Source of the DNA: Desulfatirhabdium butyrativorans DSM 18734
GTDB lineage: Bacteria; Desulfobacterota; Desulfobacteria; Desulfobacterales; Desulfatirhabdiaceae
Direction of reading: 5' to 3'
Assembly (NCBI RefSeq): GCF_000429925.1
Contig: NZ_AUCU01000027.1
Span: forward strand, 1 to 64,000
DNA length: 64,000 nt
The notes beneath the pieces are model-generated. The model searched no databases. It was not told where the DNA came from and saw only the letters and a program-made list of their open reading frames with translations. A program made the translations under genes and the position numbers. Positions 1 to 52,208 of this stretch are shown one piece after another; the stretch's first letter is position 1, and each line of letters starts with the position of its first letter.

Positions 1-235
1 CTATCGCCAACTTTGCATCGACTTCCGCTACCCTAAAAGCGTCGTCTTTCCCATGTTTGTGTATTTCGGGGCTCAATCACTTCAGCCTTGCGGCTTACGG
101 CCTGCCAGTTCGCTGTCCTACGCTTAACGCTCGGGGTCACCCCCTTACGTCCAAGGACTCGCTATCCGGTGGCTGGCTATGCCTTCCGGGATGGGCTTCT
201 CACCCACTAAAACACGCGACCTTGCCCGGCCGCAC
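1..235 (-). mobile_element. Group II intron, 5' end (domain I), cut by window edge
   Basis: Read on the minus strand, the element begins at 235 with GTGCG, the usual 5' end of bacterial group II introns. A GCGGCC/GGTCGC basal stem follows, then sequence typical of domain I. Near positions 26-41 a short hairpin (CGCT/AGCG stem) presents TAGGGT in its loop. This can pair with GCCCTA, the last six bases of the 5' exon on the minus strand, allowing one G-U pair, as expected for EBS1-IBS1. The rest of the intron, including any reverse transcriptase gene, lies to the left of the window. The intron runs opposite to the host gene, so it cannot be spliced from the host gene's mRNA. Confidence 0.8.
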
Positions 236-8296: not shown

Positions 8297-8380
8297 GTGC
8301 CTGAACGGAAAACCCCTATTCGGAGCAGCGCGCCGCCTGCGGGCAGGCTGTACCCAAAACGGGTTTTTCGTTCAGCCACT
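8297..8380. repeat. Modular palindromic element, copy 1 (A-arm then B-arm)
   Basis: This 84-bp interrupted palindrome begins GTGCCTGAACGGAAAACCCC and ends with the inverse CGTTCAGCCACT. The left half is the A-arm (TATTCGGAGCAGCGCGCC then GCCTGCGGGCAGG). The right half is the reverse complement of the B-arm outer part (TACCCAAAACGGGTTTTTCG). It lies between the kinase stop and the transglutaminase-like gene. The same element recurs at seven other places in the window. Confidence 0.85.
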
Positions 8381-15155: not shown

Positions 15156-15370
15156 GAGCCAATTGCAAAAGTCCTTCGCGCCATTCCGGCGAAAGCCGGA
15201 ATCCGGTTCTTTCAGTACATTCTGGACCGCGGCTTTCGCCGGGGTGACCCAATAGCGCCTGAACGGAAAACCCCTTTTGGGTGCAACATGAGCCGGAGGC
15301 TGGCTGCGAGCTGCTCCGAATAGGGGGTTTTCCATTCAGGCACAAAATATGCCGATTTTGCAATTGGCTC
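15156..15370. repeat. Nested palindromic repeats between ispA and dxs
   Basis: The outer boundary is a perfect 15-bp inverted pair: GAGCCAATTGCAAAA at 15156-15170 and its reverse complement at 15356-15370. Inside on the left is an ATTCCGGCGAAAGCCGGAAT hairpin (15183-15202), a widespread bacterial intergenic repeat type. On the right is copy 2 of the modular palindromic element (15255-15343; B-arm then inverted A-arm). The structure looks like one repeat inserted into another. Confidence 0.85.
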
Positions 15371-33055: not shown

Positions 33056-33274
33056 GACTTTGTAAAAAGTCCGGATATCCCGCGCGTCGCGGGATTGCGC
33101 TGCATCCTTCGTCGCTGCGGCATAGGTTAACTAGTGCCTGAACGGAAAACCCGTTTGGGGTACAACCTGCCCGCAGGTGACGCGCTGATCCAAATAGGTG
33201 TTTTCCGTTCAAGCACTAACTACGCCTCATTCCTCAGGATTTGCGCGCCTTGTCTGCGGCCTTTTTACAAAGCC
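33056..33274. repeat. Nested palindromic repeats with modular element copy 3
   Basis: The outer 17-base segments (GACTTTGTAAAAAGTCC at 33056 and GGCCTTTTTACAAAGCC at 33258) are near-complementary. Copy 3 of the modular element (33133-33217; AGTGCCTGAACGG to its inverse GCACT) lies in the middle. Left of it a CCCGCG-TCG-CGCGGG type repeat and right of it a TTTGCGCGCCTTGTCTGC segment belong to the outer repeat. The arrangement repeats the nesting seen at 15156-15370. The rest of the 330-bp gap shows no gene. Confidence 0.8.
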
Positions 33275-42156: not shown

Positions 42157-42302
42157 GAATGAAAGTCGCGGGAGCGATTTTCGTAGGAATCGCCCATGCA
42201 ACCGGGATTTCACCCCGGTTAATGAAAGTCGCAGGAGCAAGCTACAAAAAATGGGAACGATCCGCTTTCTTCTAACCCCTAACCCCTGACCCCTGACCCC
42301 TG
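42157..42302. repeat. Repeat block P, copy 1, with CTAACCC/CTGACCC heptads
   Basis: The block starts with AATGAAAGTCGC, then two hairpins (GCGATT/AATCGC and AACCGGG/CCCGGTT), a second AATGAAAGTCGCAGGAGC and CTACAAAAAATGGGA. It ends with the heptads CTAACCC x2 and CTGACCC x2 (42272-42299). A close inverted copy is at 46650-46790. Confidence 0.8.
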
Positions 42303-42336: not shown

Positions 42337-43998
<1,662 letters not shown>

Positions 43999-44063
43999 TC
44001 AATAAGGTTTTGACAACAATGGTCGATCGATCGAAATCGTACGCTTTTCATCCGCTTTTAGTT

Positions 44064-44377
44064 AGTGCCGAACGAAAAACTCCTATTTGGAGCAGTGCGC
44101 CGCCTGCGGGCAGGCAATTTTGCGATGCAGCGTGAAATCCTGCGGAACACAGGACAGCCGCCCGATCTCGTACGGGTCGGGCGGATCCGGGTCCATCAAG
44201 AAAAGTCGAATCCTGTGGATTCATGTGGGTTATATCGTGCTTTCTCGTTGAGAACGCCCGACCCAATCACGCCTTTGGCGTGATCTTCGGCGGCTTCAGA
44301 CAGGTTCCCGCTGCATCGCAAAACAGTCTGCCCTCCGGCTCAGGTTGTACCCAAAACGGGTTTTCCGTTCAGGCACT
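44064..44377. repeat. Modular palindromic element copy 4, long form with internal hairpins
   Basis: This 314-bp element has an A-arm at the left end and an inverted B-arm at the right. Inside, TTTTGCGATGCAGCG (44118-44132) pairs perfectly with 44310-44324. Further perfect hairpins are CCGCCCGA/TCGGGCGG (44158-44184), ATCACGCC/GGCGTGAT around TTT (44266-44284) and GAATCC-TGT-GGATTC (44208-44222), with a TCCTG/CAGGA stem at 44138-44154. The right terminus overlaps the stop codon (TAG) of the minus-strand gene at 44376-45200. It lies between that gene and pyrG. Confidence 0.85.
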
Positions 44378-45200
44378 AGTTAGAAGGTGCTGACGGCGAT
44401 GGTGCAGCCACACGCTGTTTGAGCTCTTCGATGGCCTGATGAACGGGTTTCAAAGCTTCCGATGGCTGATATCCGGCATCCGGGGTCTCGGGCTGGACAG
44501 CTCCGGATTGACCGTCGGCAGGCTTTGTTCCAGTCTCCGGTTGTGCATCGATCTGTTGAACACGGATATCCTGCAGGACAAAGCCCTGTCGGGATACCTG
44601 AATGGAATAGGGATAATGAATCCCCTGAATCATCTTCCAATCCGAGAAACGGATTTCTCCATTGGGCTGCTGCAATCCATCGGATAAAACGTTCAGTCGA
44701 ACCGGTAAAAAACTGTCCACATCCACCCATAGCTGGGTAACGGGATCATCCGACTTGCTGGCGCCAAGAATCCAAACCGGTTTTCCCTCGAAGCGCCACA
44801 GGGCGCACTTTTCCAATTGCAATCCCATCCGCAAGGCCCACTGGTTGAAAGATACCCGGTTTCTACACCAGGGAAGCATGGCTCCCAATTCCATCCGGTT
44901 CATGGAATCATCCGAAAACAACGGTATGGCCTGCCCCCCGTTTCTGGAACGGTTGGCAGTGCCATCCTGCTGATAGGTAATCGAATCCGTCACCGTGGTG
45001 GTGGAACGATCCGGGTTCGTCATTTCCTGGACAATCTTCAGCGCAGAACATCCGCCCAGACTGACCAGCATCTGATCAACGACCTGATTCCCCTGGGGTA
45101 TGAACCCGGACATCACGATCCAACCGAAAATGCACACCGGTATCAATCGAATTGCAACCGGGGAGCGATGCGATTCCGTCTTTTGGTCTTTTCTCAACAT
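44376..45200 (-). CDS. Hypothetical membrane-anchored/exported protein
   Basis: A 274-residue protein of unrecognised family. A hydrophobic segment at about residues 15-35 (AIRLIPVCIFGWIVMSGFI) suggests a signal anchor. The body contains a beta-rich domain (WALRMGLQLEKCALWRFEGKPVWILG, then LWVDVDSFLPVRLNVLSD) reminiscent of lipoprotein-localisation-like folds, but I cannot assign it. The C-terminal 60 residues are rich in Pro, Gln and Ala. Starts at 45200 or 45212 are possible, and neither has a good ribosome-binding site. The stop TAG lies inside the terminus of a repeat element, so the natural C-terminus may have been altered by insertion. It follows eno on the same strand. Confidence 0.65.
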   Translation of the reverse strand: MLRKDQKTESHRSPVAIRLIPVCIFGWIVMSGFIPQGNQVVDQMLVSLGGCSALKIVQEMTNPDRSTTTVTDSITYQQDGTANRSRNGGQAIPLFSDDSMNRMELGAMLPWCRNRVSFNQWALRMGLQLEKCALWRFEGKPVWILGASKSDDPVTQLWVDVDSFLPVRLNVLSDGLQQPNGEIRFSDWKMIQGIHYPYSIQVSRQGFVLQDIRVQQIDAQPETGTKPADGQSGAVQPETPDAGYQPSEALKPVHQAIEELKQRVAAPSPSAPSN

Positions 45201-45258: not shown

Positions 45259-46575
<1,317 letters not shown>

Positions 46576-46609: not shown

Positions 46610-46830
46610 TGCAAATGTCCTTCTTCGTCATTCCGGCGAAAGTCGAATATCAGAAGTCAGAAGTCAGGAGTCAGAAGTCAGAATAAAGCGGATGGCTCCC
46701 ATTTTTTGTAGCTTGCTCCTGCGACTTTCATTAACCGGGGTGCAGCCCCAGCTGCATGCGCGATTCCGGCGAAAGTCGCAGTCCGGTTCTTTTCAGTACA
46801 CTCTGGACCCAGGCATTCTCCGGGGTGAGA
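46610..46830. repeat. Repeat block P, copy 2 (inverted), with TCAGAAG heptads
   Basis: ATTGCAAATGTCCTTC and CATTCCGGCGAAAG resemble the repeat at 15160-15197. Next come five heptads TCAGAAG, TCAGAAG, TCAGGAG, TCAGAAG and TCAGAAT (46650-46684), then the reverse complement of block P from 42157-42270 (TCCCATTTTTTGTAGC, TTGCTCCTGCGACTTTCATT). A degenerate CGGCGAAAGTCGCAGTCCGG with CCGGGGTGAG tail ends it. No gene is seen in this gap. Confidence 0.8.
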
Positions 46831-46950: not shown

Positions 46951-47034
46951 GTGCCTGAACGAAAAACCCTGTTTTGGGTGCAACCCGAGCCGGAGGGCAG
47001 GCTGCTCCGAATAGGAGTTTTTCGTTCAGACACT
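46951..47034. repeat. Modular palindromic element, copy 5
   Basis: This 84-bp copy has a B-arm on the left (GTGCCTGAACGAAAAACCC, then CCGAGCCGGAGGGCAG) and an inverted A-arm on the right (GCTGCTCCGAATAGGAG to GTTCAGACACT). It lies just upstream of the small wHTH gene. Confidence 0.85.
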
Positions 47035-49081: not shown

Positions 49082-49231
49082 CGTATCTGAACGGAAAATA
49101 TAGTGTTCCCGGACGAAGCCCCCTCATTCGGGGCAGCGAGCCGCCTTTGGACAGGCAATATTTCGATACAGCGTGAAACAGCCTACCCTCCGGCTTGGGT
49201 CTCACCCAAAACGGGGTTTCCGTTCAGGCAA
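49082..49231. repeat. Modular palindromic element, copy 6 (degenerate, long form)
   Basis: It starts CTGAACGGAAAATATAG directly upstream of the MFS start codon. A second arm-like segment (GGACGAAGCCCCCTCATTCGGGGCAGCGAGCCGCC), a GATACAGCGTGAAA internal module shared with copy 4, and an inverted B-arm ending CGTTCAGGCA follow. Two partly fused copies are possible. Confidence 0.7.
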
Positions 49232-52080: not shown

Positions 52081-52208
52081 GTGCCTGAACGGAAATCCCG
52101 TTTTGGTTACAACCTGAGCCGGAGGGCAGACAAGTTCCCGCTGCATCTCAAAACTGCCTGCCCGCAGGCGGCGCGCTGCTCCGAATAGGGGCTTTCCGTT
52201 CTGGCACT
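52081..52208. repeat. Modular palindromic element, copy 7 (medium form)
   Basis: This 128-bp copy has a B-arm (GTGCCTGAACGGAAATCCCG, CCTGAGCCGGAGGGCAG), a short middle module containing CCCGCTGCATCTCAAAA and an inverted A-arm (TGCCCGCAGGCGGCGCGC to CGTTCTGGCACT). Its right terminus contributes the TAG stop of the gene at 52207-52716. Confidence 0.88.

Follow-up and report, generated by a model that had tools for sequence, protein, structure and literature searches.

A hairpin-rich 312-bp stretch before the CTP synthase gene of Desulfatirhabdium butyrativorans is very probably a type II MITE with the ends of ISNCY insertion sequences

The hairpin-rich DNA before the CTP synthase gene of Desulfatirhabdium butyrativorans DSM 18734 has a mostly ordinary explanation: positions 44065-44376 of the window (the whole stretch analysed, 64,000 nucleotides of contig NZ_AUCU01000027.1) are very probably one full-length member of a type II MITE family, sharing their ends with ISNCY (NF033593) insertion sequences, which would mobilise the element. 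This reading is based on interspersed copies, shared ends, 6-bp duplications, two empty sites, and an ISNCY transposase in relatives. Ends, duplications and empty sites together connect a repeat family of high copy number with a transposase group that already has a name, and the hairpins are explained without a new RNA.

The element proper measures 312 bp (44065-44376, plus strand from A arm to B arm), as assigned by whole-genome matches to other long copies and by alignments, and its limits were set by an exact TAGTTA on either side (left target-site duplication, 44059-44064; right, 44377-44382). The A arm (44065-44138, plus strand) consists of the terminal repeat GTGCCGAACGAAAA, which is the consensus GTGCCTGAACGRAAA minus one base, followed by subterminal GCCTGCGGGCAGGC and TTTTGCGATGCAGCG. 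The inner module (44139-44303, plus strand) carries the palindromes CCGCCCGA/TCGGGCGG, GGGTCGGGCG/CGCCCGACCC, ATCACGCC/GGCGTGAT and GAATCC/GGATTC, and the B arm (44304-44376, plus strand) carries CGCTGCATCGCAAAA and then the terminal repeat CCCAAAACGGGTTTTCCGTTCAGGCAC. As expected of a MITE, the element has terminal inverted repeats, a fixed-length duplication, a size within 50-500 bp and many copies, and carries no transposase gene. Its neighbours are co-directional, as initially described, with CTP synthase (pyrG, 42337-43986) on one side and an ORF ending at 44376 (no Pfam match) and then enolase (45259-46527) on the other, all on the minus strand. It sits 78 bp ahead of the CTP synthase start, with the upstream minus-strand ORF on its other side. 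To the TAG stop of that ORF the right duplication contributes TA and the element its final C; if the element is cut out on paper, the stop reads TAA, so that the upstream protein is unaltered by the insertion. At the window edge, positions 1-200 (minus strand) match a Group II intron (D1-D4-6), truncated by that edge.

The hairpins reported in the initial annotation are present, with one correction of coordinates: the 15 bases of TTTTGCGATGCAGCG at 44118-44132 pair with CGCTGCATCGCAAAA at 44309-44323, one base off the 44310-44324 first given. All the inner stems listed there were found in the sequence, namely CCGCCCGA/TCGGGCGG (8 bp, 44158-44165 with 44177-44184), ATCACGCC/GGCGTGAT (44266-44273 with 44277-44284, TTT loop), and GAATCC/GGATTC (44208-44213 with 44217-44222). 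They cannot all coexist, since a longer 10-bp pairing of 44174-44183 with 44255-44264 competes with the 8-bp CCGCCCGA hairpin. Folding of the minus-strand transcript, the check that had been proposed, gave a structure far beyond chance: against dinucleotide-shuffled sequence, the 312-nt fold scored z -10.1 for the minus strand and z -8.1 for the plus strand. With the arms removed, the core (44137-44304) still folded better than shuffled sequence, though more weakly than the whole element (z -4.9 minus, -2.5 plus). Strong folding of both strands is the outcome expected from inverted repeats in DNA, and the nested folds look like DNA features, produced by a MITE's terminal inverted repeats and by the palindromes inside it.

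Copies were searched for in the organism's own genome (4.48 Mb in 73 contigs, 97.3% complete), stretches of which were sampled for closer reading. Other long copies, which the initial annotation had proposed to collect, exist: at least 40, including the window's own, were found at 82-93% identity in both orientations (40 of 390 candidates scored). The terminal repeat GTGCCTGAACGRAAA gave 428 matches in this genome at up to one mismatch, whereas its reversal, used as a control, gave 1. In a set of 57 copies for which the flanks were read, an exact 6-bp direct repeat lay just outside the ends in 14 (shuffles: mean 0.68, maximum 4), and the target consensus was TANNTA; when duplication lengths of 2 to 12 were tried on these 57 copies, no length other than 6 gave a comparable excess, apart from a few 7-bp cases. 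Against the MITE reading, the duplications are imperfect in many copies, so the family is old.

The lengths of the short copies cluster at 82-84, 88-89 and 127 bp, and each of these classes can be read as an A arm joined to a B arm at a short match (CAGG; GCCTGC; AAA/AACAG), the ends being retained. Those in the window comprise three 83-bp copies (8297-8379; 33134-33216, with an exact TAACTA duplication and inside another repeat; 46951-47033, duplication 5/6), an 89-bp copy (15255-15343), a 127-bp copy (52081-52207, duplication 5/6), and a 149-bp copy (49083-49231) that retains GATACAGCG of the long form. The initial suggestion that short copies are deletion derivatives accounts for the 83-, 89- and 127-bp classes through A/B junctions at short matches, and judged by these junctions the short copies look like products of internal deletion from the long form.

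For the detection of empty sites, the flanks of 81 copies were joined, one duplication was removed, and the product was compared with the sampled sequence. The evidence comes from two copies, one of them of the long form, both lying within other repeats and both distinct from the window copy at 44065-44376. The short copy at 33134-33216 has an empty sister site (L038:6525-6677) that aligns at 89.5% and runs through the junction without gaps. In L041, a long copy of 285 bp interrupts a third repeat, about a dozen sisters of which are uninterrupted. Uninterrupted sisters show that the copies arose by insertion and not by loss elsewhere. The third repeat (GAATGAAAGTCGCAGGAGCAAGCTACAAAAAATGGGAGCC) itself has window copies at 42188-42302 and 46648-46765, and a dozen or more in the sampled genome.

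The same terminal repeat is present in 25 of 242 genomes of the same taxonomic order, and in one of these (G093) it bounds an 1874-bp insertion sequence whose 490-aa protein scores 507 bits, against a cut-off of 325, with the ISNCY family transposase model NCBIfam NF033593. When 194 genomes were searched at the protein level, further insertion sequences came up in G067, G055, G089, G185, G053 and G189; those that were readable have ends GTG[CT]CTGAACGRAAA, lengths of 1.85-1.9 kb, and 6-bp TANNTA-type duplications, which are exact in two G067 copies (TAAATA, TAATTA) and in G055 (TAATTA) and 4-5/6 in others. MITE and ISNCY insertion sequences have sequence in common at their ends and none inside. 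A protein search of the organism's own genome detected two decayed NF033593 transposase fragments, each with the same end (GTGCCTGAACGAA..) at the expected distance; an intact transposase of the ISNCY/NF033593 type was not found in its 73 contigs (97.3% complete), and none of the long-spaced terminal-repeat pairs in about 400 kb of it, searched for an autonomous copy, held a transposase. From the relatives and these fragments, the mobilising enzyme is probably an ISNCY-type transposase. Such an enzyme would recognise GTGCCTGAACGRAAA on the MITE and cut and paste it, and the family would have been amplified while an insertion sequence of this kind was active in the lineage, which now appears to be left with decayed pieces only. 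Short copies would be internal deletions that keep both ends and could still be mobilised. In a genome of the same family, a 348-bp AT-rich element (L031:1509-1857) has the same ends, an exact TAAGTA duplication and an unrelated interior. In G047 (L065), six contigs start or stop about 80 bp inside the terminal repeat, as would be expected if an element there had several copies and had been active recently.

It is very unlikely that transcription of the element yields a structured regulatory or small RNA whose branched fold is the selected function. In favour of such an RNA, the fold is very stable on either strand, and core stem columns show lower variation (3.2%) than unpaired columns (10%), for which selection on DNA palindromes, position effects or palindrome-guided repair are possible causes. 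The test for compensatory changes that had been proposed for the branched fold went against an RNA: over 33 long copies analysed with RNAalifold, any double change at all occurred in 4 of 80 consensus pairs, and the covariation energy term was 0.07. The sole frequent double change, from U-A to C-G at one pair (13 of 33 copies), would favour an RNA, but it tracks a subfamily split marked by linked differences. A second pairing test followed 48 copies along a tree, with 90 pairs chosen to be strand-symmetric since RNAalifold favours columns with G-U, and with this set an apparent G-U bias vanished. Single stem changes produced G-U about as often as C-A (68 and 62 events; 72 and 92 cells). Neither strand is thus favoured as RNA, where selection on the RNA of either strand should favour one. 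On the side of an RNA, co-occurring changes were in slight excess over a shuffle control that still contained relatedness; same-branch double changes numbered 10 against a mean of 3.3 by random re-pairing (1 of 1000), 3 of the 10 keeping a Watson-Crick pair and 7 not. The gene arrangement and orientation of copies are mixed, the ATCACGCC hairpin is absent from some copies and threefold in others, and Rfam gave no match at the element at the gathering cut-off or up to E 1. The ATCACGCCTTTGGCGTGA hairpin (L022 and L028 versus L026, L027, L029 and L041) is tandem-tripled in some long copies and absent from others.

Local co-option of single copies is possible but unlikely: some of them, including the one between the ORF and pyrG, would act in cis within the gap between genes, terminating transcription or stabilising mRNA, roles proposed for prokaryotic MITEs (PMC10969869, PMC2229807). 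Two terminator-like stem-loops with T runs lie on the minus strand (44093-44079 and 44223-44207; 2 found, 0.5 expected) in a copy that occupies a co-directional gap 78 bp ahead of pyrG, but matches to a consensus are no proof of function, and placement and orientation are not conserved, with long copies flanked by divergent genes in 8 cases, by convergent genes in 8 and by co-directional genes in 6, and in inconsistent orientation as judged with a simple ORF caller. The terminator-like tips may have local effects; a read-through transcript would fold, and its tips resemble weak outward terminators, apparently incidentally. A palindrome of the REP/BOX/ERIC type, unconnected to any transposase, would share the high copy number, the palindromic structure and the largely intergenic placement, yet the empty sites and the terminal repeats identical to those of ISNCY insertion sequences make it hardly credible, and a REP-type origin was rejected on account of the 6-bp target duplications. 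The relation of long to short copies could alternatively run in the opposite direction, the short form having grown by taking up the inner module. A relative of this module was found in a second repeat family, whose ends differ, and in L120 the A side of the element is fused to an end of that family. The second, MITE-like family (L035:10683-10997, L145:69-380, L096:2116-2430) is bounded by GATGGACTCGCAAAAAGTC / GACTTTTTGCGAGTCCATC and seems to have duplications of 6-7 bp; one of its copies holds the relative of the inner module, and L120 around 1424-1750 is a chimera of A arm plus inner module joined to a second-family end. It is improbable that the inner module (L096, L120 and window) is exchangeable structured cargo under DNA- or RNA-level selection and acquired by different MITE families; such cargo might be, for example, a palindrome for replication, supercoiling or protein binding.

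The type II MITE reading of 44065-44376 illustrates how strongly folding MITEs can be mistaken for structured RNAs. The ends also occur in tiny elements of 36-40 bp that consist solely of the two terminal repeats around a spacer of 6-10 bases. Of 389 genomes of the order, 10 contain such elements (L182, L186, L187, L189, L191, L194-L197 and L072, all in related genomes). An exact 6-bp duplication flanks 10 of the 22 read, and spacers differ among copies of one genome. These are possibly among the smallest transposed units and give an opening to ask what the minimum size of a transposable unit is.

On the sequence comparisons made here, the elements form a family of type II MITEs that is new but of a known kind, and that is probably mobilised by ISNCY transposases. 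In 37 relatives, the long form was not found apart from one weak end, and a search of named genomes by one DNA pattern found none, in a set that possibly excludes the organism's own genome and near ones. No description of the terminal repeat GTGCCTGAACGRAAA was found in the literature searched, a search outside of which most subscription literature and ISfinder lay, and the string matches were due to chance. Among the closest known systems are the ISNCY insertion sequences (NF033593), which have the same terminal repeat and the same 6-bp TANNTA-type duplications; unlike them, the MITE has no transposase and its interior is unrelated. ISDol1 elements are about 1.6-1.9 kb long with 6-7 bp duplications, and the insertion sequences found here are similar in size and duplication length. 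ISDol1 is a named subgroup of ISNCY (PMC8147514). In the type II class of MITEs, only the ends are shared with the autonomous element (review, PMC10969869), and the type II MITEs Chunjie of Geobacter uraniireducens and QMITE1/2 of Coxiella burnetii show the same sharing of ends with insertion sequences, sizes of 50-500 bp and target duplications, and likewise many length variants from internal loss and transcripts predicted to fold strongly (PMC10969869). Compared with Chunjie and QMITE1/2, the family described here differs in its ends and transposase family, and its copy number is larger, with hundreds of ends.
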